Source of the DNA: Ceratodon purpureus
Lineage: Eukaryota; Streptophyta; Bryopsida; Pseudoditrichales; Ditrichaceae
DNA: 64,000 bases
Assembly (NCBI GenBank): GCA_014871385.1
Contig: CM026424.1
Coordinates: forward strand, 13,854,892 to 13,918,891
Reading direction: 5' to 3'
The first letter of the stretch is position 1, and each line of letters begins with the position of its first letter. The notes under the pieces were generated by a model. The model was not told the origin of the DNA and ran no database searches. It saw only the letters and a list, made by a program, of their open reading frames with translations. This document shows positions 1,480 to 64,000 of the stretch, piece after piece. A program made the position numbers and the translations under genes.

Positions 1480-2028
1480 TTAGTTGGGGCGGGCCACCAA
1501 GAACCCGCAGATCTGCACCTGCCTCACATTGTCGAACCCCAACACGCGCACGAAGCAGTTCGGGTACTCCTTCCTGCACTCCCCGATCTCGCGCAGCACC
1601 TGCGCCGCGTCGTTGCACCCGAACATCGGCAGCTTCCACATCGTCCAGTACCGCCCGTCGTAGTACCCGGGGCTCTGGTTGTTCGCACGCGACACGCCCT
1701 CCGAGTTGATGTCGAACTCCAGGCACGGGATCAGCTTCTGCTGGATCATGTAGTCCACCTGCTTCGCGATCTGGTCGTCCGTCAGCGCCGGCAGGTACGA
1801 GAACGTCTCGAACTTGGTCTGCCCCATCGGGTTCCACACCTGCATGCACTGCACGCGGCTGCCATTCTGCACCGAGCTCAGGGTCTGGCTCTTGGAGGCG
1901 AACAGGGTGGCGCTCTTGAGGCCGGAGAAGGCCCTCACGGAGCTAGACTCCGAGGTCGACACCGCGGACGAGGCGGCGGCGAAGGCAGCAGGGGCCACAA
2001 CAGAGGAAGCAGCGACGATGGAAGCCAT
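1480..2028 (-). CDS. rbcS: Rubisco small subunit, precursor (copy 1)
   Basis: This encodes the 182-aa precursor of the small subunit of ribulose-1,5-bisphosphate carboxylase/oxygenase, which caps the L8S8 holoenzyme in the chloroplast stroma. Residues 1 to about 60 are a Ser/Ala-rich transit peptide with few acidic residues. The mature protein starts near MQVWNPMGQ (residue 62). Family hallmarks are [17 protein letters not shown] and [12 protein letters not shown], and the protein ends FLVARPN. I chose the ATG at 2028 because it begins the canonical MASIVAASS transit peptide; the frame stays open 51 codons upstream without family character. The coding region is intronless and very GC-rich at third positions. 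The protein differs from copies 2 and 4 only at residue 10 (Val for Ala). It lies in an inverted segmental duplication with copy 4. Confidence 0.97.
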
Positions 2029-2490
2029 TGCGAACAGGGAGGTGATGGACTGCGCTGCACTTTTGCCTCCACTGCGGGTAGTGTACACTTTCAAGGTGAT
2101 GTGAAGAGCTTCGGAGTTGGGAATATGTAGGCATGGATCGGAGATTGGAAGCCACGAAAATGCATGTCGAGTGTTGTCCACAAATTGGCCGAATCTTATC
2201 AGACTTGGATCCGATTGGATTATCCATTTCCGAATGCAGCGTTGGGAAAGCGGACCTCCACTGGAATGTGTGTGCTATCTTTGAGCCTAATTGAGTTGAT
2301 GCATGGTTTTGCTTTCTGCCCTTTCTCTCGTTTCAACACCTGGAAGTGGTTCGAACAAATTTTATTGGTTCAGGGTGAATGGCAATGCTTGGTCTGATTC
2401 TAGCTCCTTGAAGGCGATGCAAGAAATATGGGTGACTGCAATGGCTTTTCGAATCCATTGCATCTGTTTGCAAGTGGTTTGTTTCTGTGG
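2029..2490 (-). promoter_or_regulatory. rbcS copy 1 promoter region, duplicated upstream of copy 4
   Basis: Read on the minus strand, this matches 28345-28928 upstream of copy 4 over its whole length. The best-conserved part is around 2130-2230 and contains CTGATAAGATTCGG-type sequence, that is, a GATAAG I-box core typical of light-regulated rbcS promoters. It also contains a shared GACAACACTCGACATGCATT stretch. No TATA box was assigned with confidence. Both members keep long matching blocks, which suggests they were copied together with the gene. Confidence 0.6.
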
Positions 2491-6209: not shown

Positions 6210-6221
6210 TATAAAACACCA
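6210..6221. repeat. Target-site duplication, left copy
   Basis: TATAAAACACCA occurs here and again, in the same orientation, at 19674-19685 on the far side of the right terminal repeat. The true duplication may be 10-12 bp, depending on where the terminal repeat is taken to begin. Confidence 0.85.
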
Positions 6222-6226
6222 GCGAC

Positions 6227-6268
6227 GCTATCTTGTGAGCGGTGAGCGGTGAGCAGTGAGCGGTGAGC
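6227..6268 (+). repeat. Left terminal inverted repeat core (42 bp, perfect)
   Basis: It begins GCTATCTTGTGAGCGG and consists mainly of five GTGAGC units, four of them 7 bp apart (GGTGAGC, with one AGTGAGC variant). It is base-for-base the reverse complement of 19625-19666. Arrays of short repeats at the tip may be transposase binding sites; that is inference. Confidence 0.92.
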
Positions 6269-6799
6269 CCAAAAAAATTCAGTTTCTGTGTAAAAATTTG
6301 AGTTTTTCGTATATTTTTTGAAATTTTTTGAGAGCAATCACACAATGATGAGCGATTTGGGACACTTTGCTTGAATATACGAATGCCAAATAAGTAGACC
6401 CTATAACCGTGGAATGAATGAAATGTGCGTGGTTTCAGGTAATATCTAACAGTTAAGGGTTTAATACAGAATGTATATTCTATTTTATTGAATTTTTCTT
6501 ATCTCATTTTCGTGGTCTTGGAAGTGGAAAAGGAATATTTTGAGGTCATGAGGGAATATTCTCTACTCGGATCCGAGGAGAGAATATTCCCTAAGTATGC
6601 CAAAACATTGGTTTTCCTCTTAATTTTCACACGTACACATTTGAGAAGTGAACAATATCTAAATAAAATAGTGACCTTTATTTATGTTCTGCGGATTCCA
6701 AATCCAGCACAAAGCAAAAACAAATCAATTCCGCTATTGATATAATGTATTCTTGAACTGTATTGGTCACTCTATTTCAAAAACTAAACATAAGAAAAA

Positions 6800-9700
6800 C
6801 TACTCAAGCGGTTCAGCAACTTTGGCCATCTCCAGAACACGCATAACTTCGTTGAAGCTGAAGCTAGGGGCGTGCATAAAAGTATCAACCTTGTAATCCA
6901 TCTCACATAGATAGCGGAAGATATAATAAACATGTTTGCAGTACTTCCACTGGCCTCTTTTGCCAAGGGTCTCCGAAGTCATTTTCATGAAGTCGGGGCA
7001 AGTACATCCAGGGAAGTCCGTGATGGTGATACAATATATAGTTTCACTGGGACTCTTCAAGGAGATGACGCATCCAAATCCTGGATATGGGATCGATGTG
7101 ACACTTGTTATCCAATACTTGTTCATGAGACCCGCGCTGCTCCACTTGTTGCGGTGGTCGGAGGAAGGGGCGTCAGGACTTCTCCTGATGGCATATCCGT
7201 TTCGAGTCGTCGGGTGTGTATCAGGATCTACAGGAACCGGGAAATGACTCCTTGGAAGCGGCATATTAGCAGAGACCTGGAACTGACGTCGAGGTGATAG
7301 TACTCCACGTTGTTGGAGTTGGAACCCGGCCTCTTCAAGATCCAAAATCTCTTTGATGGTCAAGTTCGTGCCCCTCTTCACAGGCCAAGTCTGCGGGATA
7401 GATGGCCAATCGATCACAAAGGACTTCTTTGTGCCCTTCACACATCTATTAATGTCGTCGGCGCAAAACCAGAAGTCAGTAGAAATATGGCGGTCGGTTC
7501 TGAACTCCTTCTTCAGCCCTACATATGTAGGAGCAGGCGTACCATGTGTACCTCGGCGCACTCGGGTATCGCACTTCTCATTCGTATGAGCCTGCATTGC
7601 TTGACATTTTCGGTTAGACTTGCCGGACAGTCTGGCAATGTGCCACTTAGAGGGGTCGCAATCTGTCTCCTGCACTGAAGTAGTGTGTTGAACTCCGGAG
7701 TCAGGTTGAGAAAGGGCCTCCTCAATGCGTGCTCTAGTGGATCTCGTGCCATCACGAGGAATGGAGTAATTCACTGTATCATAACGATGAGAGTCATGAC
7801 TGGAACCGGGCGGCAAATCCAACTTCCGTTTTGTAGATCCAAAGATCTCTGCACCTTCCAAGCCTCCTTTCTTCGTCAATATATCCTCGGCTCCCGGGTA
7901 GGAGTTCACTGCCTCAGCAATCAACTTGGGGTCACCAGAGCGTTGAGCGTGGCGTAAACGAAGTTCTGCTTTGTCCGGACCTTTACCGCCCTTTCCTCCC
8001 TTCAACCAAGACCGGTAACTTGTTATCTGCATGAATGCTCGGATCATATCATCCACTGTTGCCTCGTACAAACAGGTCATTGTATTTCCTGATTGTTGAA
8101 GCCATCTGTTGTGGACGGTTTCGGCAAGGTTGCAGGAAGGCATGTCGGCTCTCTCGTCAAGGGTGAGATCCTGGGAAAAAAATTAAAACAAATGATGTCA
8201 TTTTCAAGATTATAAAAATTAATTAAAGTATACTAATACTAGATGAAGGGATAAAAGAGAATTCAACTTACAAGCTGCATTGAACCTCCCCATTGTTTGT
8301 ATCGATAGTGCCAGAAAGCCATCCAATCATTTAGATGACCCCTTCCTTCTTCTGTTGTGGCGCCTGACGAAAGCCACCACCCGCGGATGACGTTGTATTG
8401 TGCGTCTGCTTCTTCTTGGGTCTTTGCGTCCTTCCATACTTTGCACAAAGCTTTGTGTTGGTCTTGAAAGCTTGGCAAGATGTTCCGAGAAGTTGCCCTT
8501 TGCAAGCACTTTGTCCAGTGGAAAAGACAAGTGCGTTCCCGTTCTTCCATTGGATCATTGGGATCGCCGTTCCCATACACCTTACGAACAGCGTGCCAGT
8601 TGGCTCCAGCGTTGTCAGCCATGAATCCTTTGAAATTTGTATTTTCAAGGCCGTTCTTCCGCATAACTTCATTAAGCTGAAGCCAAAATAACTCCTGAGC
8701 AGCAGCATCTTCAGATTGCATGTCACAAAGGGCAATCGTCATAACTTTACAGTACTTACTGTCATAAACGTGGCATGCCATAGTGGTCCAGTCAGCTACG
8801 CGCTTGACATGGTCGAACATGATCCAGCAGTCTTGAAGATCGCCTCTAGGCTGCATGCGCTTCACCAAATCCACACCGCTTCCTGGACGATCAGTGGACA
8901 TCTTCAACAGAAATACCTTGCCTTCGTTCTGTCCAGGGAATTGATTACGATGGATAAAATCGAAGTTGGAGTAGTCCTTCAGCTCCAGGATGCTGTCTGT
9001 TACTCCTCTTCCTTGGCGGAAAAACCTCTTTGAGCCAGAAACAAAATTGCGTATATTCGGTGATGTAAGAGTCTCAAATTGGTCCATTACAGCATCCATA
9101 GATGCTCCTCGAAGATGACTACCTCCTGCAGTTGGACGGATCAGAGCATCGGCAAGGTACTGTTTGCTGGCCGCTAAGACGATAGCAGAATTCTTGGCGT
9201 TAGGTGTCTTCTGAACCTCCTTAGCTATGCACTCAAACATTACGTCCATTGAATCCTGACATCTACCTTGAGATACAGGATGTCTGTGACGTCCTAAATG
9301 AATGGCCGCACGAGTAACATCTTTATCTGCGGATGACACGTGGTAGATCCTAGCGTCGCATAGTGCTAGACAAATTGGAGGTGTCTTACATACTTTGCAT
9401 GCTAATGTAGATTTCTCTGTGGGAGATCCTCCCACGGAAAACGGTACTAAGGCTACACCTGACCATTCTGTGCTGTTTACCATTCCATTATTCCTGCAGA
9501 TATAATCGCAACTACGGTTGGGACATTCTAAATGTCCAGTACAGGATGACTTACGATATGTGAGGCCGTACTCGTTCTTGATGTTTGTGGTCATGGTCTT
9601 GCACCAGGTGTGGCCATCATACTGCTTGCTCATCCCGTCCATGCCACCTCCAAATTGAGTTGGAACTCCTTCAGGTAAAGGGGGCAGCTCAAAAATCTTG

Positions 9701-9885
9701 TCTCCGTCATAAACTGGCGGTAAGTACTTCACTTGTTCATGGTCGATTGTGTCAAAATCAATCTGCGACAGTTCTGATCGGGAGCCCCTTCTTGATGCCG
9801 TCATCCTGATGGCAAACAAGACGCTTCTATTTTTTTGGGAAGTAGGATGAATAGGTGGACGCCCTGTAGACAATGATCCGGACAT
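6800..9885 (-). CDS. Mutator-like transposase with GCM1-like and SWIM zinc fingers
   Basis: Two exons, 9885-8272 and 8170-6800, join in phase across a 101-bp intron with GT..AG borders, giving 994 aa. Residues 115-202 form a cysteine/histidine cluster (C115, C121, C126, C163, C166 and a terminal HLGRHRH) like the WRKY-GCM1/FLYWCH fingers that bind transposon ends. The RNase H-like core shows D358 (IMFDHVK), D424 (MADNAGAN) and a CLFH motif at 453-456, the CxxH signature placed between the second Asp and the catalytic Glu in Mutator transposases. The final Glu was not assigned. Residues 927-951 form a SWIM finger (CTC..CKH), the usual C-terminal finger of this class. There are no internal stops. 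The product should be nuclear and cut and join the element's own ends. The start at 9885 is the first ATG downstream of a MITE-like insertion, and the native N-terminus may lie further upstream. Confidence 0.85.
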
Positions 9886-9907
9886 ACTAGCATTAGGGGA
9901 AAAATCA

Positions 9908-10324
9908 GGTCTCCAACGGGCCTTGTAAGACAGCCCGGATTAGGTGAGCTTCCTGCCCGCTGACACTTCTCTTCGAAATCTCATTGGTCGATATCCTGCC
10001 CGCTGACAACAAAATTCGCCTCGCTGACAGCAGGATTCGCTGACAACAGGATCCGCTGACAACAGGATCCGGTACTGTCCAATGGGGTGATAGCAGTGGG
10101 CACACGGTCGGTGACAGTGTCATTACTGCTTATATTGTCCAATGGAGGGGTGGGGTGGGGTGGGGTGGGGAAGGGAAGCGATTGGCTGGACCCCCCAAAT
10201 GCCAACTGCTGTCACTGCTGGCAGCATTTGGCGACCTGCTGGCACAGTTGGTGCCAGCAGGTAAAGTGCACGGGCATGGCAAAAATTTTGGCACAGAAAA
10301 CATGGAAAAGGCCCGTTGGAGACC
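9908..10324. mobile_element. MITE-like inverted-repeat insertion (417 bp) nested in the large element
   Basis: The termini GGTCTCCAACGGGCCTT (9908-9924) and its exact reverse complement (ending 10324) face each other. Inside are repeated GCTGACAACAGGATCC-type units (about 10000-10075) and a (GGGGT)n tract at 10147-10173. No clear target duplication was found. It lies between the 246-aa ORF and the transposase and overlaps the 3' end of the former. Confidence 0.6.
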
Positions 10325-10870
10325 CCAAACTTCTCCTAATGAACGACTGGTCTGTCGCGATGGACGACTTGACTGCTGAGACCCCCGAGACTGGAATGGA
10401 TTTGACCTAGTATCTCCTAGCTTGATTTCACTGTGACTGTCATCATCCGAGTCACTCAACAAGTGCACTGAATTGTCACTCGGTTCTATTTTGACAGATG
10501 CTCCACCAGGAACTGGAACAGTAGACGTTGAAGGAGGAGGGGTCAAAAGAACAGTAGACTCAGACATCTGTGCATCTGATAACCCGTATACCTTGAAAGT
10601 TCCAGTGCCAAGAGTCCAGACATAACCATCAGGTGTACTATCCTTCACTTGGAATATACACTCACGAATCTCTCCATTATCATCGAATATCTCCTCTTCC
10701 ACGTAAATGGTCCCGGCTCTAAAACCAAACCTTAAACTAAGCAGTCGCTCCTCGACAAGTACCTTATTGTCTGGACCTACAGACATAACTAATGGAATAC
10801 CTCCATCATGAGCTCGCAGAGAGGCCATTCTAAGAGTACTATAGAAGATGGAAGAAGTACAATCATGCAT
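10130..10870 (-). CDS. Unknown 246-aa protein with SUMO-interaction-like motif; possibly the 5' part of the transposase gene
   Basis: I do not recognise the family. Residues about 15-95 look globular (hydrophobic/acidic alternation, YVWTLGTGTFKVYGL). They are followed by a Pro/Ser/Thr-rich linker, a VKIEP sequence that fits the sumoylation consensus, and HLLSDSDDDSHSE, a hydrophobic patch followed by acidic and Ser residues as in SUMO-interacting motifs. A Ser/Arg-rich stretch follows. The last ~65 residues come from the MITE-like insertion at 9908-10324, so the native C-terminus has been replaced or the true exon ends near 10325. ATG at 10870 is the longest start; ATG at 10828 (MASLRAHDGG) is an alternative. 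It may have been joined originally to the transposase ORF, which begins just beyond the insertion. Confidence 0.55.
   Translation of the reverse strand: MHDCTSSIFYSTLRMASLRAHDGGIPLVMSVGPDNKVLVEERLLSLRFGFRAGTIYVEEEIFDDNGEIRECIFQVKDSTPDGYVWTLGTGTFKVYGLSDAQMSESTVLLTPPPSTSTVPVPGGASVKIEPSDNSVHLLSDSDDDSHSEIKLGDTRSNPFQSRGSQQSSRPSRQTSRSLGEVWGLQRAFSMFSVPKFLPCPCTLPAGTNCASRSPNAASSDSSWHLGGPANRFPSPPHPTPPLHWTI
10147..10173 (+). repeat. (GGGGT)n tract, G-quadruplex-prone
   Basis: Five consecutive GGGG runs separated by single T occur on the plus strand (10147-10173), within the MITE-like insertion. Such a pattern fits the sequence rule for a G-quadruplex. Confidence 0.7.
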
Positions 10871-11521
10871 TGGAGGAGAGGTGGAGCGGGAATACTACAA
10901 GACAATGAGTTGTGACTCCAAGAGATTGTACAGACTATATAGTTCTTCGGGGGCTAAATAAATCGCCACCTTCCATGTTCTGAAAATAAATAATTTATAC
11001 AGGTGGATATTGCATGACCTGTAGAGCACAAAATTTAGTTACTTAGTATCTGACATACTAAAGTGATTAGGCGGCTGAGAGCGCCAATATGGTTATCTTG
11101 GGCTACTACAAATATAACAAGCAGCCGTCAAGTTAATCTTTTAGCATTGACCTTTAATTTAAATAGGGGTTTGTTAAGATACAGTTTATTAAATTGGACG
11201 TTCTAATTTGCGTACAGGTCATGAAAAGATAATTAGTGGATCTCCATAATTCATACATAATATTGTGTCATACTCTTTACAGATCGATATTGGACTTCAT
11301 TAAGGGTGTAGTGGCAATAATTCAAATGGTTACTAATATTATAGTTTATTTAAATACTGGCACCATCCATAACAGGTACCACTCGTGACAATACAAGTGT
11401 TATAGGGATTAGAGGAGAAGATACACATAGTCTGCTAAGTGACAATGAACGTCTCACTTATCAATTTCATGACAATCTTCCCAGTTAGTTGTATGTTTGC
11501 GAGAGCGTGTTAGTGAGACAC
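10871..11521. promoter_or_regulatory. Divergent intergenic region inside the element
   Basis: This 650-bp AT-rich stretch separates the 246-aa ORF (minus) from the first exon of the ParB-methyltransferase gene (plus). It should hold the promoters for both directions. No individual box could be assigned with confidence. The 5' UTR of the plus-strand gene probably occupies its last part. Confidence 0.5.
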
Positions 11522-14500
11522 ATGAGGGACGGGGAAGAACCGAGTCCAAGAGTGCCTAGGGCTCCTAGATCTTCTGCGATTAGAGGTAGAGGAAGAAGGC
11601 GAGGTCCTCGTTTCAGTAATTCCAAGCAGATCACATACCAGAGGAGACGAAAAGAGAAGGATGCCCTCACCCGTATCGCAGAAGTGGATTCTTTATCAGA
11701 TGAATCTGGCCATCTGAAAATCAAGGAATTGGCTACTTTATGTCAAGTATAAGTGACTTATTTGCTTCCACATTTTGTTTTCTCTTTGTGTGTTTTTTAT
11801 GTTCATCATGTGTAGTTCAAATATTTGATTATGTCTATCCCGCCCAAGCTCTCGCTATGGACAATTTCTCCATGGAATAAGTTTAGCCATTGTATTTAAC
11901 GTTTGGGAGTTTCTGGACTTGAGTGAAATGTACTTGGTGAGTCCCTCAGTATCTCAATCATGAAAATCTCGAGATCACTGTAAAGGTAGGCCTGACGCAA
12001 GCTACGGATCCAATACTTGGACTGCAGGTCGTCACGGTTGACCCTGATACCGAGGGTACGGGCTACTCCCATCGAAGTGCTGCCTGGGAAGCAGAAGTCG
12101 CTGAGCTAACTTGCAAGGGCGACTCGCCGGCTGCTCTCTCTTCAGCAGAGGTCTCGGACCCACAGGTACGTTCTCTATCTCTAAGCTGTTTCTCAAACCC
12201 GATTCGGTATGCAAGAATATAGTTCTGAGACTGCATAAAATATAACTGTATGAGAATGTTTTGAGCACTTATTGCGGTCTCTACTTCAAATCTAGAATCT
12301 AAACCCTAGTTCAGTCCAGCCGCAAATTCAAACAAATGTCTTCTTGGGTACTCAGCGTTTCTCGTCGCAGGCGATCGAAGAGCTTCAAAACCCGAGGGCG
12401 GGTCGTTCCCATATTGAAATTGTGCAAGATATCCGACCAGTTGCGCTCCCGGAGCTCTTGGACCAAGCAGCAGATTCCATTCAGATGGAGGCTGTAAGTT
12501 CGAATTCACGATTCTCGAGTTTGTTGTCTGAGTGAGTTGTGCATGCTGGCTGGATTAAGAAGTAGGTTGTACGTCTGTGGAGCTCGAATTCATGATTCTC
12601 GAGTTTGTTGTCTGAGTGAATTCTGCATGCTGGCTGGATTAAGAAGTAGGTTGTACGTCTGTGGAGCTTTGGAGTCTCAGTCAGCGCTTGTGAATAAGTA
12701 TCGACTAACTTTCAATTCAGAAGTTAGATTGCTAGATGTTAGGTCTCTGTAATGGGTAATCTGTAATAGGCATAATTAATATTTGAGAGTTATGCCTGGG
12801 CTGTTTAGATGCGGTTTAGGTGTGCTTAATGGTTGCATGAAAGGCTGCTGTCGTCGTTCCAAGCCAGCGTGAAACTAGAAGCTTATACGGTGTAGGGGTA
12901 GTAATTGATTGAGAATCTGAAATTGTGTCTTCGTGTTTGCAGATGAGCAGGGAGCATGGGATGGAGGAGGTCCCTTGCGCGACCGCTGACAGAGAGAGTA
13001 CCTTAGGAGGAATGGCAGCAATGGAAAACTTGTTACGCAGGGAAGTGATGGGCACCTCACACCTTGCACTTCAGAGTGCGGTGGACTCGCCAGGTATGGA
13101 GATTGACGTGCCACTCTGCAGAATGATCCCCATGAAGGATGTGAGGGAGCCATTGCAGAACGACATTCAAAAGCTCAAGGCCGAATTCACGCGTGGATAC
13201 AGGCGGGCATCGGCATGCTTCTATCTCTCATTGAGGAGTTACAGGATGGAGGAATCATATGTCACTGAGACGGACAGGGCATCGTGGTCAGAGTTATGGC
13301 GCCAAGAGGATCTTGAGTTTGAGGGGCGCTTGCTTTCTACTCCGGGGTTGGAGAAATTCTCCAACCGATTCTTCTATGTTTGGGACGGGAATCATCGACA
13401 CATTGCATGGACTGAGAGCATCAACGCTCTTCATCAACAAGATGCAGAATTCCATGTTTCTGTTCGCTCTGTGATCATCAATGTCACACCTCAAAATTGC
13501 AATATGATGTTGCACGCCATGACTGATTGGAACAAGTAAGTATTTCAAACATATCTTTATTTTTTATAATGGCTTTGTAGATTCTGTATGAACTTGTCCA
13601 TTTACTCGCATTGCCAATGCCAATTTTGGTTTTATAATTTTATATGAATCTCTATGTAATGTGTTTCAGGAAGAATCAGGTAGACCATGTGGCTCAGCAC
13701 TGGACCCATGAGTTGAGGCGTGTCCAACAGCTCGGTTTGTTGGACTTTGACCAATTGAAAGGATTGGTGAAGGAGGAGGACTTGCAGGCAAGCATTCTAG
13801 AGTGGACACGAACAAAAAACAAGAAATGGTATCATCTAACGATTGATGCATTCATCAACTTCTTATACGAGGTAAGCAAGATTATTTTTCTATCCTTGCC
13901 GCAACCTCTAATAATGAAAGTACTCTATAACTAACTATATAGTACTGTGCATCTAGAGGGAGATTTTAGCCGCTCAAGAGGAGGCAATTCGAGCATACAA
14001 AGACTCTTTGATAACAGGACTAGGTGAAGACCGGGAAGGAAGTCCCTCTGAGCTCCTTACAGCTAGTAAGAAGGCTGTTAAAGTGATAAAAACATCACTA
14101 CACACACGATTGGAGCGCTTCGTAGCGATCGCCAATCCAGCTAACGGTGATGGATTTATCAAGGAGGTATGTAAATCTCCAAATTGCCACGCCAGCCTCA
14201 GTTGGAGGCATGCGGTTCTTATGTAATGTTTCAGAAATAGTGGTCTCAGGAGTCACCCCGGACCCATGCCTCGGATCCGAGGGGTGCTCCTTTGACTCTC
14301 CTGAATCTTGGTTTTGCCGGTGCATGAGCTCCAGCCCAGTGCTGGAGTCTTAATGCACCATTAACTTTGTTTGTTTTATTTTAACCTTTGTGCGTTGCTC
14401 ATGCTTGTGAGCCTCGGTACTGCGTGCATTGAGCACGCAAGGACTCCCTGCTCGTGTTTTCTTTTTTGGAAAGTTTTGCAATTGGAGGCTTGCGGCCTGG

Positions 14501-17500
14501 TTGAATTCCTTAGTTTTTCTCAAAATGCTTCGGTTCTGGACTGCAGTGGCTTCCGGTTTGTTTTATGTTTTTGAAGCAAGCCTCACTTGGAGGCTTGCGA
14601 TTTTGTTGTAATTTTGAGAAATAGTGGTCTCAGGAGTCACCCCGGATCCATGCCTCGGATCGGAGGGGTGCTCCTTTGACTCTCATGAATCTTGGTTTTG
14701 CCGGTGCATGAGCTCTAGCCCAGTGCTGGAGTCTCAATGCACCATTAACTTTGTTTGTTTTATTTTAACCTTTGTGCATTGCTTATGCTTGTGAGCCTCG
14801 GTACTGCGTGCATTGAGCACGCAAGGACTCCCTGCTCATGTTTTCTTTTTAGGAAAGTTTTGCAATTGGAGGCTTGCGGCTTGGTTGAACTGCTTGGTTT
14901 TTCTTGGAATTCAGCACCCAACGAATGGTGTCCTGGGATCCGAGGTGAGAATATTCTCAATATTCCTCGAGATTGTAAGTTGATTCTGATGATGCTTCGG
15001 TTCTGGACTGCAGTGGCTTCCGGTTTGTTTTTTGTTTTTGAAGCAAGCCTCACTTGGAGGCTTGCGATTTTGTTGTAATTTTGAGAAATAGTGGTCTCAG
15101 GAGTCACCCCGGACCCATGCCTCGGATCCGAGGGGTGCTCCTTTGACTCTCATGAATCTTGGTTTTGCCGGTGCATGAGCTCCAGCCCAGTGCTGGAGTC
15201 TTAATGCACCATTAACTTTGTTTGTTTTATTTTAACCTTTGTGCATTGCTTATGCTTGTGAGCCTCGGTACTGCGTGCATTGAGCACGCAAGGACTCCCT
15301 GCTCGTGTTTTCTTTTTTGGAAAGTTTTGCAATTGGAGGCTTGCGGCTTGGTTGAATTCCTTAGTTTTTCTCAAAATGCTTCGGTTCGGGACTGCAGTGG
15401 CTTCCGGTTTGTTTTTTGTTTTTGAAGCAAGCCTCACTTGGAGGCTTGCGATTTTGTTGTAATTTTGAGAAATAGTGGTCTCAGGAGTCACCCCGGATCC
15501 ATGCCTCGGATCGGAGGGGTGCTCCTTTGACTCTCATGAATCTTGGTTTTGCCGGTGCATGAGCTCTAGCCCAGTGCTGGAGTCTCAATGCACCATTAAC
15601 TTTGTTTGTTTTATTTTAACCTTTGTGCATTGCTTATGCTTGTGAGCCTCGGTACTGCGTGCATTGAGCACGCAAGGACTCCCTGCTTGTATTTTATTTC
15701 TGCAGCAAGCCTCACTTTGAGGCTTCTGGCTCGGTGGAAATGGTACTTTATTTGTGAATGTTCTTTGTTGATTTCGAGTGCATCGTCCATTTACACTATG
15801 TTTTTTTGTAGTGTCTTTTACATTTGTGATGCATAATTTCACTTAATTGCTCTTGAGTATCAAGTAGATTATATGAAATGATATGAATGTTTACTAAGAT
15901 GATGCTTGACTTTTTTGCAGATCATCCGGCACTTTGACATATTTTATATGAATGCAGAGATGACCCCTGAAAAGTTGCAGCTTTTTTCAAGTGCGAAGGT
16001 TTCTGCCAAGTACAAAGAGAGGTGGTTGAAGTGGTGGAACATGAGCAAGGAGAGTCGGCAGGAGTACAATTTTCCTCCACATCCAGCTTCCGATTTAGTT
16101 CTCCGGCCTTGGGTTGATCAGGCTGCCTTCTGGGCTGGGGTAAGTTTCTAATTCTTAAGCTTTTGCATTTTTTTTCACTGATGTTGCTTATTGCAAGATA
16201 ACATAATTTTTGATCATAAGAATTGTCATGTATTCTTATGTGTTTCTTAATTGATTGTATTTGCAGCTAGAGGAGGAGGCAGTCATTCGTTATGCCAAGA
16301 TTGTAGAGGAGGACATGATAGTTTTGAGGACAGAGGATTTACCTAATCCTGTAGATGATATTGGCTCATGGATTGAGGCTCATTCCATCACTCTGTGGGG
16401 AAAAGCCTTTAAGCCTTTTTTCCCCAAGGCTGGAACCTTTACCAAGAAAGAGCCATTTCTCCACCAAGCTGGAGCTGAGAATGCTATGAAGCAGGCTATC
16501 TTGAGGTATTTCTGGAGGGAATTGGTTGTAAAGGGTGCCATTGATAGGAAGGATATTCCTCAGAGGTTTAAGAAATGGGTGGATGTCTCTAGCAGTGAGT
16601 GCATTTTTACAGATTATCAGAGGAGGCATTTTGGAGCTCCTCATCTCCTTCAGTGTCCTTGGTACCTTGAGCTCAAGGAGAATGATCAATGCCCAGGGGA
16701 AGAGAGAGGTCTTAAGGCAAGTTGTGAGAATTTGATGAAGCAGCTTGGGGATGAGAACATGGTGGGTTTGGAGGAGGATACCTCGCAGGTTGGTGATGAT
16801 TCTGCTCTTTCTGAGAGACAGAAGAAGAAGGTGGCTGAGAGGAAAGCAAGGACAGAGGCAAAGATGAAGGAGAAGGAAGACAAGAAGAAGGAGAAGGAGC
16901 AGGAAGCTAAGCTCAAGAAGGAAGTGGCAGCAAGAAACAAGGAATTGGCCAAGTTAGTTTTGAAGGAAGGGCCAGAGAAGTTGATGTCTCATGTTGGCAT
17001 TTCTCCTTCAGGCAGTAGCATGCAGGCTGCCATAGTTCCTGTAGCTCCTCAGGTGCCTCTTTTTTCTACCCCCATGCCTTCTCAGACTATCTACACGATT
17101 CCATGCTCGCAGTTGGATGAGGTAGACACTAGTGTTGAGATCATCAATGATTGCCCTATGGGCATTTTGGATTTGTTTACTTCTTTATCGGAGGGGGATG
17201 TGCCTGAGATTTGGAGCAAGATCAAGGATTGGATCCAAGACCATCTCGGTAGCAAGGCTAGGAATTTTGGGGGTGAAGAGGCTGAGGCTGCTGTGGACCT
17301 CATCATTTTCGATGTGCCAGAGGATTTACCAGTTCCAGGTTTAGGGCAAGATGGTGAGATTCCCTCCTGGAACAAGCACCCCAAGATTTCAGCAAGGAAA
17401 AAAATGGAGTCTTCATGGATTAAGGCCCATTTTGAGTTTGCTATGCAGTTTCTGCAAGATGATGGAGCTTTGATTATTTTTTACCCTGATTCAAAGTTCA

Positions 17501-18580
17501 TTTCGAATGAGCTTATTTCCTGGGCAGAGTGGGCTAACTTCCAGGAAGAGGCCAAGTGGTTTGCAATCAATGGGCTGCCATTGACTATTCCAGACCGTTA
17601 TCCACGCCAGCACAAGACTTTTATGGTCAAGTGCTTCATCAAGATGGAGAATGTCGAGGAGGAAGTGCCAAGGTCTTTGTTCCAGTTTCATGATAGGGCT
17701 GAGCTTGGTGCCTATGGCATCAAGCTCTCCTTTGATGGACATTGCACTAATTTGATTACTGCAGATTCTCTGACAATTAATTCAGAGACTGGGGAGCCAT
17801 TCAGAGGAGCAAGGGAGAAGACTTCTAACCTCTTGCAGGCTCTAATTGATTTGTGCACGGTTGAGAATGACATTGTCATGGATCTCACAGCTTCTACAGG
17901 TATTAATTTGTTTTTTTTTTTTGTTTAAAAATATTCTGTATTTCATTTTATAATTTTTACTTATGATTTGGAGCTCTATTTTCTGTGCAGGTGCCTCCAT
18001 TCGAGCATCCAAGAGTCTCCGGCGTCATGTCATAGGCTTTGAGTCAGACACCACCTTGTACAATCAAGTGTTGTTTCCTCTTCTTCCAAGCACGGAGGAG
18101 GTTGAGTCTACTCCAATTCCTGTGCCTTCACCGAGGAAGAAACGTTCGGTTGAGTCAGACGATGAGCCTGAGAGGAAGACTGCCCCCAAGCGTTCTTGTA
18201 AGTAAGTCTTTACATTCATTTTTCCTTTGTTTATTTTTTTTTAAAGTTTAGTTCAATATTTATTAGACTGTAAAATTGTCATGTGCAGTCGGAAGAAAGC
18301 GTTGAAGAATGACATTGGTGGCTCTATTATCTCGCCCCATCTTAGCAAGATAAGGAGTCCAGTTAGACCTTTAGAGCTTCCACATTATGCAGAGATGCAA
18401 GCTCAAGCCTATTTAGCTGCTCCTTCTCCATCTATTTCATCTGATAGAGATAGCATTTGTCGTGATGCTGAGATTTATCTTGACATAGCTGCAGAAGTTG
18501 CCAGAGTGGTATTATCTAGTGATAGCGATTCTTATGATGGTTGGATTGGTACTTGTAGTGATGACGAGATGTCTTCTTGA
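11522..18580 (+). CDS. ParB-like domain fused to N4/N6-type DNA methyltransferase fold (ten exons)
   Basis: Exons 11522-11746, 12028-12165, 12320-12493, 12943-13535, 13670-13871, 13957-14166, 15921-16139, 16267-17899, 17991-18201 and 18289-18580 all join in phase with GT..AG introns, giving 1298 aa. The acceptor of exon 6 is the least certain. Residues 1-75 are basic (RGRGRRRGPR), likely a nuclear signal. Residues about 234-375 resemble a ParB/sulfiredoxin-fold domain: VPLCRMIPMKDVREPL, then YVWDGNHRHIAW (DGNHR at 327-331). Residues 768-822 are Lys/Glu-rich, probably helical. Residues about 925-1160 follow the beta-class DNA methyltransferase order: DLIIFDVPED (931-940, position of DPPY motif IV), GAREKTSNLLQALIDLC, then VMDLTASTGASIRASKSL and IGFESD (motif I, SAM-binding region). 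The tail has basic clusters (RKKRSVESDDEPERK) and an acidic Ser-rich end. Motifs IV and I deviate from consensus, so catalysis is uncertain. Bacterial and phage ParB-methylase fusions are the closest architecture I know of. Confidence 0.82.
12501..12668 (+). repeat. 84-bp direct repeat, two copies, in intron 3
   Basis: Two tandem units begin CGAATTCACGATTCTCGAG (12501) and CGAATTCATGATTCTCGAG (12585). They differ at only a few bases. They lie just after the exon 3 donor and carry no coding signal. Confidence 0.9.
14190..15730 (+). repeat. Tandem array of ~384-bp units in intron 6
   Basis: About 3.7 units start near 14234, 14616, 15084 and 15468 (each with AATAGTGGTCTCAGGAGTC). Spacings are about 383, 468 and 384 bp; the second unit carries an extra ~85 bp. 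Units 1 and 3 share variants (GGACCC, CTCCAGCC, TCTTAATG) against units 2 and 4 (GGATCC, CTCTAGCC, TCTCAATG), so the array grew by duplication of a two-unit block. Each unit has an inverted GAGCTC..CAGCCCAGTGCTGGAG hairpin. Repeated short ORFs in it are repeat products, not genes. Confidence 0.9.
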
Positions 18581-19624
18581 TCATTGCATATTTACACTAT
18601 ATTGTTATGTTTTCCCTACTTATATATTATATGATTGTTTTCGCGTTGGATTTTATATTTTGCCTGAACCTCACTTTATTCTACTTCATTATGAATTTCT
18701 ATATCGGCCATATGTTTTAAATTGACTTCATACATGAATCATGTTTGAATTATAAAGATGGTACGATTTTTTTTAGAAGTTGAATATTCCTTGGGTACAG
18801 CTTGAAGGCACCACAATAAAATGTGATTTTCTTAGAACCTTTCTCATGTATTTCTCCCTTTTCTATTATGCAAATACCCCTAGTAATTACTTGGGGTACT
18901 TGGGCACCCCTAGTACTTACTTCGGGTACTTGGACACCCCGTACGGACACAAATCCCAAGTCCGTTTTAGGAGTAATTAACTCTCAGTTAATTAATTCTG
19001 CATCTTTAAATCAGTCATCCAACAATTGGATGAAAATTTATCCATCCCATGAAACTAGAAGCCACAATAGCCGTTGTGTATATCTATTCTTCACCTAATT
19101 TTGTTTTACATTATTTTATCATTCCTCTTATTCTCCTATATGTACTTGTTCAAATTTTTTTAATATATTTTTGTTAATTCTTTTTTATGTTTTATCTTTT
19201 TTTATTTTCTTCATTTATTTATTTATTCTTTGTTTTTCTTCTTTCGTTGTTTTATTTATTTTTCTTTCTTTTCTTCTTATTTTCCTTCATTTTTTAATTT
19301 GTTTTCCGTATATTCGTTTTCATTATTTGTTTTCATCTTTTTTCTTTCTTTCATTTATTTATTTTTTTCTCTTTTCTAATTTTTTCTTTATTTAAATTTA
19401 TTCCTATTGGTCTTCATGGCGTGGAATTGATAAGATATATGAAAATAAAATTACAACTTATTCGGGTATGAATCGGGTGTAAATTTCTACATTTATCAAT
19501 TTAGAAGCCATTTTTTTGGAATATACCCTAGAACACCTTCCACGGTCATAGGTCCCATATATGCCATGTCATTCAAAATCATCTCAAAATATCAAAAAAA
19601 GAGTCAAAAAACTGAAAATTTAGT
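18581..19624. other. 3' flank of the ParB-methyltransferase gene and right subterminal region
   Basis: It contains a repeated TACTTGGGGTACTTGG-type motif near 18890-18940 and a strongly T-rich pyrimidine tract at about 19160-19400. No gene is seen. The last ~100 bp are the diverged inner part of the right terminal repeat. Confidence 0.5.
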
Positions 19625-19666
19625 GCTCACCGCTCACTGCTCACCGCTCACCGCTCACAAGATAGC
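19625..19666 (-). repeat. Right terminal inverted repeat core (42 bp, perfect)
   Basis: Exact reverse complement of 6227-6268. The outermost few bases (19667-19673) differ from the left end. Confidence 0.92.
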
Positions 19667-19673
19667 ATTCCCG

Positions 19674-19685
19674 TATAAAACACCA
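19674..19685. repeat. Target-site duplication, right copy
   Basis: TATAAAACACCA, identical and in the same orientation as 6210-6221. Confidence 0.85.
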
Positions 19686-26186: not shown

Positions 26187-26620
26187 GGTAAGATTGTTTG
26201 CAAAAAGTGGAAGCCAACTCCTCAAAAACAATAATAAAAAATTATCCTTGAAAAAAATATATAGCCAAGTTACTAAAATGGGCAAACACTATCCGCTACA
26301 AAACATTGATGAACAAAGCAACTCAGCATTAGCCCAGAACATAGAACAGGAACTGAAATTTTCGTTTTCTTTTCAAAGCAGTCGTCTTTATCCTGACAGT
26401 CCGGATTCCTGAATGTCACGCTCGTACCAACCGATGGCGATCAGATGATCCACTCAATTCGTGGTCATGATCGGACTCAGCTACACTTCGAGGTTGCATT
26501 CTAGATTGCATCATCGTACTTAAGACCACCACCCTGGCATTGGAAGTCAATCACTACGTTTCATTTCTAATTTGTTTTGTATCGATCGGTTTCCGGTCTC
26601 CCTGCCCGCCAGTCTTCGCA
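26187..26620 (+). promoter_or_regulatory. Upstream region of rbcS copy 3
   Basis: This contains the promoter and 5' UTR of copy 3. It does not match the promoters of copies 1 and 4. A MITE ends only 437 bp before the start codon, so this element could affect expression. No individual boxes were assigned. Confidence 0.4.
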
Positions 26621-27169
26621 ATGGCTTCCATCGTCGCTGCCTCCTCTGTTGTGGCCCCTGCTGCCTTCGCTGCCGCATCGTCGGTGGTGTCGACCTCGGA
26701 GTCTAGCTCCGTGAAGGCCTTCTCCGGCCTCAAGAGCGCCACCCTGTTCGCCTCCAAGAGCCAGACGCTGAGCTCGGTGCAGAATGGCAGCCGCGTGCAG
26801 TGCATGCAGGTGTGGAACCCGATGGGGCAGACCAAGTTCGAGACGTTCTCGTACCTGCCGGCGCTGACGGACGACCAGATCGCGAAGCAGGTGGACTACA
26901 TGATCCAGCAGAAGCTGATCCCGTGCCTGGAGTTCGACATCAACTCGGAGGGCGTGTCGCGTGCGAACAACCAGAGCCCCGGGTACTACGACGGGCGGTA
27001 CTGGACGATGTGGAAGCTGCCGATGTTCGGGTGCAACGACGCGGCGCAGGTGCTGCGCGAGATCGGGGAGTGCAGGAAGGAGTACCCGAACTGCTTCGTG
27101 CGCGTGTTGGGGTTCGACAATGTGAGGCAGGTGCAGATCTGCGGGTTCTTGGTGGCCCGCCCCAACTAA
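26621..27169 (+). CDS. rbcS: Rubisco small subunit, precursor (copy 3)
   Basis: This 182-aa precursor is the most divergent family member here, yet it differs from the others only in the transit peptide: Val at residue 10, Val at 22 and Lys at 32. The mature protein is identical to the other three, including the [18 protein letters not shown] core. The coding region is intronless and GC-rich. I chose ATG 26621 because it starts the MASIVAASS transit peptide; the longer frame upstream has no transit character. After the stop (27169) the sequence resembles the relic at 32445-32545 (shared AAACAA, CTCCTTCAGGAATT..CAGA-type pattern), so the pseudogene probably derives from this lineage. Confidence 0.97.
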
Positions 27170-28344: not shown

Positions 28345-28928
28345 TACATTTAGCAACCACCTGCAGACAGATGAAATGAATTCGGAAATCCATCAAGTTG
28401 GCACATCACGATTCACAATCACTCATATTTCTTGCAACGCCTTGGTTTCAGGGGCAAAAAGCAGGCCAAGCATTGGCAGCTACCATGAACCAATGGAATT
28501 CGTTCGAACCACAGTTTCAAAGTGTTGAAACCATGGTGCAACGGATAGAAAGCGAAAGGACTCTCCTTTATTTGTGTCAAAAAAAAAAAAAAGAAAAAAA
28601 AAAAAGAGCGAATTGACGCGTCAATGTCAAGGCATGCATAATGCATACATTAGGCTCTTCTTAAAGATAGCACACATATCGAGTGGAGGCCCGCTTATCG
28701 AACTCTGCTTTGGGAAATGGATAATCCAATCGGATCCAAGTCTGATAAGATTCGGCCAATTTGTGGACAACACTCGACATGCATTTTCGTGGCTTCCAAT
28801 CTCCGATCCATGCCTACATATTGCCAACTTCGAAGCATTTCACTTCACCTTTGAGAGTATACACAACTGGCAGTGGAGTTAGATTCTGTATCCGAAGTGC
28901 AGTGTCGTCCGACATCTCCCTGCTCGCA
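28345..28928 (+). promoter_or_regulatory. Promoter region of rbcS copy 4 (matches copy 1)
   Basis: It matches 2029-2490 in inverse orientation. The strongly conserved block at 28725-28840 holds CTGATAAGATTCGG with a GATAAG I-box core and TTTGTGGACAACACTCG. A poly(A)-rich tract at 28577-28606 is absent from copy 1, so it arose or was inserted after duplication. TTGAGAGTATACACAACTGG at about 28849-28868 may include the TATA-like element. Confidence 0.6.
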
Positions 28929-29477
28929 ATGGCTTCCATCGTCGCTGCCTCCTCTGCCGTGGCCCCTGCGGCCTTCGCCGCCGCCTCGTCCGCGGTGTCG
29001 ACCTCGGAGTCTAGCTCCGTGAGGGCCTTCTCCGGCCTCAAGAGCGCCACCCTGTTCGCCTCCAAGAGCCAGACGCTGAGCTCGGTGCAGAATGGCAGCC
29101 GCGTGCAGTGCATGCAGGTGTGGAACCCGATGGGGCAGACCAAGTTCGAGACGTTCTCGTACCTGCCGGCGCTGACGGACGACCAGATCGCGAAGCAGGT
29201 GGACTACATGATCCAGCAGAAGCTGATCCCGTGCCTGGAGTTCGACATCAACTCGGAGGGCGTGTCGCGTGCGAACAACCAGAGCCCCGGGTACTACGAC
29301 GGGCGGTACTGGACGATGTGGAAGCTGCCGATGTTCGGGTGCAACGACGCGGCGCAGGTGCTGCGCGAGATCGGGGAGTGCAGGAAGGAGTACCCGAACT
29401 GCTTCGTGCGCGTGTTGGGGTTCGACAATGTGAGGCAGGTGCAGATCTGCGGGTTCTTGGTGGCCCGCCCTAACTAA
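28929..29477 (+). CDS. rbcS: Rubisco small subunit, precursor (copy 4)
   Basis: The 182-aa precursor is identical in protein to copy 2. It is the inverted-duplication partner of copy 1: promoter, coding region and 3' flank all match copy 1 in opposite orientation. Residues 1 to about 60 are the transit peptide; the mature chain starts near MQVWNPMGQ and carries all the conserved small-subunit features noted for the other copies. It is intronless with high GC3. ATG 28929 was chosen as for the others; the open frame continues 56 codons upstream into the duplicated promoter. Confidence 0.97.
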
Positions 29478-62208: not shown

Positions 62209-64000
62209 TCACCTTTCGAAGGTTAAGTTGAGTACCAGAAGGTTTGTGAGTCTCCGTATATCAGGCAGCTCAACAAGTCCAGAACATCTTTCAGCTCGAA
62301 ACTCCTGTAGAGAGGTCAAGTCATTTAGACCCGGCACTGTTTCAATCAAACAGCAGTCTGTGATGTTCAATTTCCGCAAATGTCCCAGATTTCCAAGATA
62401 GGACAATTCTTGAAGCAATGAACAGCCCTCTAGATCTAGTTCCTCCAAAGCAACTAGATCACCCAGACCAAGCAGTGCTCTGATTGTCAAGCAACGCCTC
62501 ATCTTTAACTTCTGCAAGTGTCCGAGCTTTCGTAGATTACGTGGCAACTTTTGAAGCGAAGAACAGTTGCACAAATCAAGTTCCTGCAAGGCTACCAAAT
62601 TATGCAGACCCGGCACTGCCACAATTGATCGGCATCCAGAGATGTTCAATTTCTTTAAATTGGTAAGCTTCTGTAGATTGGGCAATTTTTTAAGCTCCAA
62701 ACAGTCACTTAAATCAAGTTCCTGCAAGGCAACCATGGCACCAATACCACTAGGGCAGCTACACAACCGATGGCACCCTCCAAGATCCAGGAATTGCAAA
62801 CTGTTCGTCTCCCAGCTGATCAAGCCTGAGTTGGTGTCGACCCCATTGCCAAAGCGAAATGCTGCCTCCCTCAACAAGCTCAGCCTGCTAAGATCCGGCA
62901 ATTTATTCTCATTTTCACTAGAATCCAACCCCAAGATCCGGACTTCTGTTAGCAACCCAATCTCCTCAATGCACGGTGACCTGCTCGGAATGTTGTCCCA
63001 TCTCAGAAACAAAAGATTGCTCAGCAGGCCAAGTCCAAGAATCTCGACGGGAGATGTACATGAGATGATTTCCAGGCTCTTCAATCTTGTCAGTGGGCTT
63101 AAGTCAAGGCTCACATAGTTCTCAACGTGACTTCTCACCAGCTTTAACACTGTAACATTTGTGCAACACTTGAGGCTGAAATTTTTCCTGGTCAAAAAAA
63201 TTTCTGTAAAGCATATTCTCATCATGTTTTCCCAGCCATTGTGCTCAGGCAGGAGACGCTCTTGAACTAATATTTCTGAGTCGTTGAACACCCACCGTCG
63301 GCTTGCAAGTTCCCAACATTTGCTTCCGATTTACAAAACTGACGCACCAAGGGGTGCATGGCGATTCTTGTGCTGCCATCTCGTGAGTGCTCTAAAAGCA
63401 ATTTGTTCTTCAGGCCCTCCAACTGCGAACAAGGATAACAGCGAAACACAATCATTCGATCTATTCACAAGCTCTCAAAGATTACATTACACAATTGAAT
63501 CATTGTTTAAGGAACGGTCTTGCAATGATCTGTGGTTTTCACAATGGGTGAGACCTGCAAAATATTTAACATCAGATAGGCTGGGGCCTTACCCGCGTCA
63601 TGATGGCACCTACACTTATTCCATGTAGCAAGCTTAGCCATGTGAAGATGTTCAACTGCGTCAATATAGAACCTTCTTGAGAAGGTTCAGGATTAAAAAG
63701 GGCTGCGTCCATGTGTAAGAGCCGATCTTCAAGTGACAACATGTCAAAACTTTTCCTCAAAAAACTAGGCCGAGAGCCCAGTGTCAACATGTCAAAACTC
63801 AACCTGAAGCGACCGAATCTGAGCTTGGTCAGTTTCTTTTCCCACTGTTTCGGAAGGATCCCGAGCTGCATACCCAACTCCCTCAACACAACTGGATGAT
63901 AATGATAATGAATGTCATCATCTTCACATGGCATCATCTTCACCGAAAAAATGTCATCATCTTCACCGAAAAAATGCTCCGCACTCCTCATACATCGCTC
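62209..64000 (-). pseudogene. NBS-LRR resistance-type gene, 3' part, one frameshift; 5' end outside window
   Basis: Minus strand. The first segment (64000 or about 63891 down to 63614) has ARC-type sequence: VVLRELGMQLGILPKQWEKK and SFDMLSLEDRLLHMDAALF. A 191-bp GT..AG intron (63613-63423) joins in phase to LEGLKNKLLLEHS..RIAMHPLVRQFC, the usual end of the NB-ARC region (MHD-like MHP). Then the frame breaks near 63300-63330: the downstream frame continues as WELASRRWVFNDSEIL and runs to 62209 through about ten leucine-rich repeats of the LxxLDLxxCxxLxxLP type (QELDLSDCLELKKLPNLQKL). Such proteins detect pathogen effectors in the cytoplasm. A single-base indel explains the break, so this is either a recent pseudogene or a sequencing error. 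N-terminal and P-loop parts lie beyond the window. Confidence 0.8.

Follow-up and report, generated by a model that had tools for sequence, protein, structure and literature searches.

Proteins that combine a ParB-like domain with a DNA methylase have been described from several sources. The transposon Sola1-1_Ec32 of Ectocarpus encodes an accessory protein of 1104 amino acids (aa), which is reported to possess ParB-like and N4/N6 methyltransferase domains (PMC12477816). The same article cites similar transposon proteins of green and red algae (Iyer 2011; Petroll 2025) and mentions giant EnSpm elements of red algae with accessory genes. ParB fusions to N6_N4 methylases are described from phages, and a bacterial ParB-methylase, that of Bacillus cereus, is reported to nick DNA (PMC12704722, PMC5512222). 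VANC, a protein of Arabidopsis transposons, acts against silencing, and its targets are often tandem repeats (PMC5735166). Retrotransposons of dinoflagellates and charophytes are described as having taken up a DNA methyltransferase (PMC5890265). Here, we describe a locus of the moss Ceratodon purpureus, located in a stretch of 64,000 nt (GCA_014871385.1, CM026424.1:13,854,892–13,918,891, forward strand; hereafter the window). The window contains a complete DNA transposon of 13.45 kb with two genes in head-to-head orientation, a transposase gene and a gene that we refer to as the ParB-methylase gene. We are highly confident of this identity, in which the transposon has two genes and one of them encodes a conserved accessory protein with a methylase fold.

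The transposon spans positions 6220–19673 of the window and encloses the ParB-methylase gene (11522–18580). It is flanked by two identical 10-bp target-site duplications, TATAAAACAC, at 6210–6219 and 19674–19683. The left terminal inverted repeat (TIR; 6220–6268, plus strand) comprises CAGCGACGCTATCTT and, after it, an array of five 7-bp iterons in tandem (6235–6268), in which GTGAGC recurs every 7 bp. The right TIR (19625–19673, minus strand), delimited by the inverted repeat and the boundary of homology, also carries five iterons, and positions 6227–6274 and 19619–19666 are 96% complementary. Besides the window, 20 copies were fetched, of which 14 gave DNA matches and 13 were aligned over the exons. 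The homology ended on the right side at 19671–19674 in 11 of the 14 copies; in the other three, it stopped short of this point or where the fetched stretch ended. GTGAGC iterons were observed on all eleven right ends compared, with four of them in L011. Ten-bp target-site duplications were found in all five copies having both ends (the window, L011, L013, L014, and L018); in the remaining copies, one or both ends lay outside the fetched stretch or were not matched exactly (L016, left only; L017, right only). Pattern searches were carried out over the 362-Mb genome (151 contigs) with reversed patterns as controls, and the 21-mer GCTATCTTGTGAGCGGTGAGC was found 313 times as against 0 for its control.

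The ParB-methylase gene is encoded on the plus strand. A sequence-only reading of this DNA had proposed a ten-exon gene with spliceosomal introns, in phase at every junction, that a DNA transposon had captured in ancient times and put to use, perhaps to mark its own DNA, to shield its ends, or to escape host silencing. The gene model proved sound, since the ten exons join in frame without an internal stop, all introns are of the GT-AG type, and the product is a protein of 1281 aa; the enclosing element is larger than had been noted. Exons 1–3 (11522–11746, 12028–12165, and 12371–12493; 225, 138, and 123 nt) are followed by exon 4 (12943–13535; 593 nt), which includes the ParB-like region from about residue 215 and the motif DGNHR at 13384–13398. 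Exon 5 (13670–13871; 202 nt) lies after the ParB-like core. Exons 6 (13957–14166; 210 nt) and 7 (15921–16139; 219 nt) are separated by an intron that contains four copies of a 300-nt repeat (14229–15763, plus strand), with 83–98% identity to the reference copy and spacings of 384, 467, and 384. Exon 8 (16267–17899; 1633 nt) encodes a conserved middle region, a charged stretch, DVPE (17311–17322), and the start of motif I, DLTAST(G) (17881–17899). The remainder of motif I and the following region are encoded by exon 9 (17991–18201; 211 nt), and exon 10 (18289–18580; 292 nt) ends with the stop at 18580.

The splice sites of exons 4–10 recurred in L009, L010, and L015, and the joined exons were open in 4 of the 13 aligned copies, namely L009, L010, and L015 (exons 2–10 in all three) and L017 (exons 3–10, with one acceptor changed). 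In the other aligned copies, there were stop codons, shifts of the frame, or altered splice sites, or 5' parts were lacking, and some of these defects may reflect the misalignment of diverged exons. Exons 1–3 are weakly conserved; they look like a linker because the frame and the splice sites are kept in several copies while the sequence evolves fast. In the exon-4 alignment, 10 of 11 rows of family 1 retain the ATG that opens this exon, which offers an alternative start; the exception is L007, whose codon encodes valine but is displayed as M by the aligner. The N-terminus is thus less certain than the rest of the gene, owing to the weak conservation of exons 1–3 and this conserved ATG.

The two halves of the gene are linked in the genome. 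A degenerate pattern for YVWDGNH matched 144 places, as against 0 for the reversed pattern. At 51 of the 58 YVWDGNH places on contigs C1–C4, the methylase motif DLxxASTG was found 3.3–7.7 kb downstream on the same strand, and the three other arrangements used as controls (upstream on the same strand, and on either side on the opposite strand) gave no match within 8 kb. When the distance was extended to 15 kb, DLxxASTG was found at 52 of the 58 places and one control match appeared; six of the seven misses had no motif within this distance, and the seventh had it at 12.1 kb. The ASTG pattern alone was noisier (260 places as against 45 reversed). As the reversed-pattern and arrangement controls were near zero for YVWDGNH and its linkage, a chance motif was rejected. 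The transposase gene takes part in the same arrangement: a YVWDGNH site lay head-to-head within 6.1 kb at 39 of the 46 transposase places on C1–C7, the contigs whose ParB-motif places were listed in full, and other arrangements were found within 15 kb at 3 of the 46. The idea that the gene model had fused separate genes was rejected on the basis of the motif linkage and the recurrence of the splice sites in the copies.

The ParB-methylase gene is under purifying selection, in agreement with a long retention by the element. Seven of the 13 aligned copies were compared with one another and with the window, and the ratio of nonsynonymous to synonymous substitutions (dN/dS) over exons 4–10 was 0.15–0.31 in all 28 pairs; three of these seven (L014, L016, and L018) are not intact, their broken codons being skipped. 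By region, the ratio was 0.09–0.29 for the ParB exons and 0.05–0.57 for the methylase, where it was below 0.4 in 26 of the 28 pairs. For the C-terminal tail, it was 0.29–0.92 in 25 pairs, exceeded 1 in two (with a single synonymous change each), and was undefined in one. In addition, a second, distant family (family 2; L021, L025, and their relatives) carries this gene pair too, arranged in the same way. Its identity to the window is 44% and 35% for the transposase open reading frames (ORFs), about 40% for the ParB region, and 27–34% for the methylase pieces. The introns also differ, in that the L021 stretch matching aa 215–426 is one open frame without the intron that the window has at aa 360.

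Two further observations were made on the copies. L018, L022, and L024 are chimeric, with 85–93% identity to the window in the 3' part and mostly 70–74% in the ParB exons, which suggests an exchange of gene modules between subfamilies. Three ParB-motif fragments lie at intervals of exactly 4970 bp and form a tandem array (C6:19184339, 19189309, and 19194279); the two seen in L027 have stops.

Several results weigh against a simple form of the two-gene picture. The wider pattern WDGNHR matched 453 places (as against 2 reversed), and the ASTG motif was found downstream at only 42 of the 94 WDGNHR places on C1–C3; therefore, many members of the WDGNHR family have another methylase partner, an unrecognised one, or none. 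A second abundant methylase-like family with the motif DWNAGTG (327 genome places, L046 being among the members) lacks such a partner upstream: it was found within 8 kb downstream at none of the same 94 places. Among the 30 exact TIR pairs on C1–C3, 15 contained the ParB motif and three the methylase motif only, whereas 12 contained neither. Conversely, 15 of the 40 ParB places on C1–C3 lay within an exact TIR pair, and the rest have other or changed ends. There are also short TIR elements with neither motif, such as pairs of 3.1 and 2.8 kb. L018 (C1:5953000–5962900), an element of 7.2 kb, has TIRs and a 10-bp duplication of its own, and nearly all of the transposase is absent from it; it carries exons 4–10 of the ParB-methylase gene, which are not fully open any more. 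The short elements and L018 together show that neither of the two genes is required in cis.

The transposase gene lies on the minus strand, with listed ORFs at 6800–8182, 8263–9939, and 10130–10894. The first of these encodes the C-terminal part, in which a SWIM-like CxC..CxH finger was recognised by eye and which shows the 35% identity to family 2. The central ORF proper covers 8263–9890, the listed ORF extending into an insert of 450 bp (9891–10340) that has inverted ends of 34 nt (82%), and the N-terminal ORF part covers 10341–10894. This insert is absent from L011, L013, and L014. In the window copy, the transposase gene is thus interrupted by the insert while the ParB-methylase gene is open. 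A genome search with the central ORF gave 78 scored places (from 2790 first-look candidates), 52 of which had no internal stop. No Pfam transposase model gave a match. Two weak matches, both below the cut-off, were obtained with the family 2 transposase: IS256 (NF033543; E 0.026) and SWIM (E 0.54, L034). The window transposase was found neither among the 93 PF10551 (MULE) matches listed in the genome nor among the SWIM matches listed there. Mutator-like elements (MULEs), to which the VANC elements belong, generate target-site duplications of 9–11 bp, a range that fits the TIRs and 10-bp duplications observed here, and IS256 is a bacterial relative of Mutator. The 10-bp duplications, the SWIM-like finger, and the weak IS256 match tentatively suggest a MULE-like class. 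The Sola class does not fit, as Sola duplications are 4 bp long.

The N-terminal part of the predicted protein appears to be ParB-like at the motif level only. The sequence-only reading had seen a ParB/sulfiredoxin-like motif here, as part of a ParB-like domain; the DGNHR motif and the order of the motifs were upheld, whereas neither a profile nor a fold match was obtained. YVWDGNHR is encoded at 13375–13398, and DGNHR, A124, and W125 are invariant in 16 of 16 alignment rows. Because YVWDGNH was also the pattern by which the rows were retrieved, its seven letters are invariant by construction, and only the arginine after DGNH and then A and W are independent of the retrieval. The results of the profile searches speak against a ParB domain: PF02195 (ParB_N) matched nowhere in the genome, and no ParB-family match above the cut-off was found in Pfam, PHROGs, NCBIfam, or PADLOC. 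The DndB profile gave one weak match over the genome, located elsewhere, and a profile search of solved structures with the ParB half gave none. The structure model was poor (predicted local distance difference test (pLDDT) 49.5, predicted template modelling score 0.31), and no ParB/sulfiredoxin fold match was found with E up to 0.001. Moreover, unrelated families matched the region in single members equally well or better than the ParB relatives (GpU, 0.0095; 16S rRNA methyltransferase, 0.0074). These findings would be expected if the N-terminal part were an unrelated domain in which DGNHR occurs by chance, an explanation that we consider possible but on the whole doubtful. The three invariant residues outside the retrieval pattern argue against it, as do the weak matches to DndB (0.052), DUF1015 (0.053), and DGQHR (0.23), which are all below the cut-off and occur in one member each, but all cover the DGNHR motif; DndB has been described as ParB-like. 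By eye, a helix and a G-loop precede DGNHR and an N-containing third box follows it, an order resembling Boxes I–III of ParB. In addition, the Ectocarpus protein is termed ParB-like by its authors (PMC12477816). We therefore presume that the N-terminal part is probably homologous to ParB, with a fair measure of reserve.

In the C-terminal half, a beta-class amino-methyltransferase fold is well supported. The Pfam model N6_N4_Mtase (PF01555) matched aa 953–1138 with 29.4 bits, above the cut-off of 26.7, and the model showed a Rossmann methyltransferase fold nearest to the amino-methyltransferases, with M1.HpyAVI, MboIIA, and CcrM as the closest folds. The profile search of solved structures with this half found DpnA/M1.HpyAVI at 0.019; a sequence search of solved structures with the window exons found no methylase or ParB match. 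Motif IV precedes motif I (DVPE, aa 919–922; DLTASTG, aa 1109–1115), as the sequence-only reading had proposed for a beta-class enzyme, but the motifs themselves are not canonical. The consensus of N6/N4 methylases is [DNS]PP[YFW] and FxGxG, in place of which the window has DVPE and TASTG. Family 1 and L026 have DVPE, without an aromatic residue, as motif IV, and motif I lacks the first glycine. These changes are unfavourable to an active enzyme but not decisive, and both structure models are of low confidence (pLDDT 49.5 and 45.2).

The same changes would be explained if the protein, though of methylase fold, had lost catalysis and assisted the transposase by binding DNA or in a structural role, as the substitutions in family 1 are conserved and not random, as expected for a re-purposed site. 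We regard such a pseudo-enzyme as rather unlikely. Family 2 keeps the aromatic residue (DTPF and DQPF), L045 has DQPY, and the low dN/dS of the methylase region in nearly all pairs is also unfavourable to a loss of catalysis. A further alternative is that the protein methylates adenine in RNA, with the element's own transcripts as substrate, in the manner of MT-A70. MT-A70 and the beta-class enzymes share their motif order, and the structures of MTA1 and METTL3 were among the Foldseek and VIA-align matches of the methylase half. The top structural and profile matches were, however, DNA enzymes (M1.HpyAVI, MboIIA, CcrM, and type II methylases), which makes an RNA substrate improbable. Many copies are broken and MULEs often carry captured genes, as would be expected if the gene were a mere passenger, captured without a function for the element as in Pack-MULEs. 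This is nevertheless very improbable, since both genes are kept in two distant families and in many copies, with dN/dS of 0.15–0.31.

Prokaryotic contamination was rejected because of the spliceosomal introns, the 22.8-Mb contig on which the window lies, and the RuBisCO small-subunit genes in the window. The contig and these genes likewise identify the window as plant nuclear DNA. The three RuBisCO small-subunit ORFs flank the element on both sides (1480–2271, minus strand; 26471–27166 and 28749–29474, plus strand). A leucine-rich-repeat ORF is located at 62209–63327 (minus strand).

We propose that the gene lying head-to-head with the transposase encodes a protein in which a ParB/sulfiredoxin-like part at the N-terminus would be followed by a charged middle and, at the C-terminus, by the beta-class amino-methyltransferase fold. 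This accessory protein may act on the DNA of the element or on its expression. It would recognise the DNA of the element, most likely through the GTGAGC iterons, five of which stand at either end, where the methylase domain could be the effector, methylating adenine if it is active. Such an action would aid transposition or the escape from silencing. By analogy with the precedent of VANC, the second protein may counteract silencing. The complete picture, in which a MULE-like two-gene element encodes an accessory protein acting on its own DNA at the iterons, seems to us about evenly balanced between right and wrong. Methylation of the element's own ends is a less secure part of it, possible though tentative. 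A wider reading would assume a MULE-like lineage of land plants in which a ParB-methylase has become the usual partner of the transposase; as a factor with sequence specificity, it would load onto the terminal iterons and modify them through a non-canonical methylase site (DxP[EFY] and ASTG). We regard this reading as unlikely on present indications. Equally speculative is its consequence that the element writes its own mark, other than 5-methylcytosine (5mC), and thereby evades host silencing or controls transposition. If self-marking at the iterons were true, the element would write a non-5mC mark in a land plant, and we know of no established mark of this kind there. The locus offers a system in which the role of such proteins can be tested, namely whether transposons of eukaryotes mark their own DNA at adenine or at N4 of cytosine. 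What the domain does is a separate question, raised by catalytic motifs that are conserved yet not canonical.

Comparison with the known systems places the locus as follows. Among the literature matches listed, judged by title and the start of the abstract, there was no case from a moss or another land plant, and one could be in print; a word search of PMC12695648 for moss, bryophyte, land plants, and ParB gave nothing. The bacterial and phage ParB-methylases show the same domain pair, which was found there with the PF02195 and PF01555 profiles according to the published accounts (PMC5512222, PMC12704722). Unlike them, the protein described here is large and spliced, and it gave no ParB profile match. 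It also gave no phage match, as tblastn with the methylase exon and with the ParB region found no phage relative. Peptide patterns gave 43 and 86 matches in viral contigs and prokaryote genomes, among which tblastn found no relative. VANC is likewise a second protein encoded by a transposon, often with tandem repeats as targets, and is not described as a ParB protein or a methylase in the abstract of its report (PMC5735166). The enzymes described in PMC5890265 are C5-cytosine methyltransferases of retrotransposons, whereas the present one has an amino-methyltransferase fold and is carried by a DNA transposon. The likeness to the Sola1-1_Ec32 protein, which is one of published description and architecture, consists in a two-domain product, with the reserve stated above for the ParB-like part, whose gene is an accessory of a transposon and runs on the other strand than the transposase; the product has 1104 aa there and 1281 aa here (PMC12477816). 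The host and the element differ, Sola1-1_Ec32 being a 21.5-kb element of a brown alga with a Sola1 transposase and the present one a 13.45-kb, MULE-like plant element with 10-bp duplications. The two-domain arrangement is hence not the first of its sort, having been reported from Ectocarpus and cited for green and red algae. As transposons of brown, green, and red algae are already credited with ParB-methylases, the plant pair, with its seemingly different transposase class, high copy number, selection, and open copies, points to a repeated or an ancient association. What is new here is its occurrence in a land plant and in a MULE-like element, together with the high copy number, the selection, the iterons, and the altered motifs.

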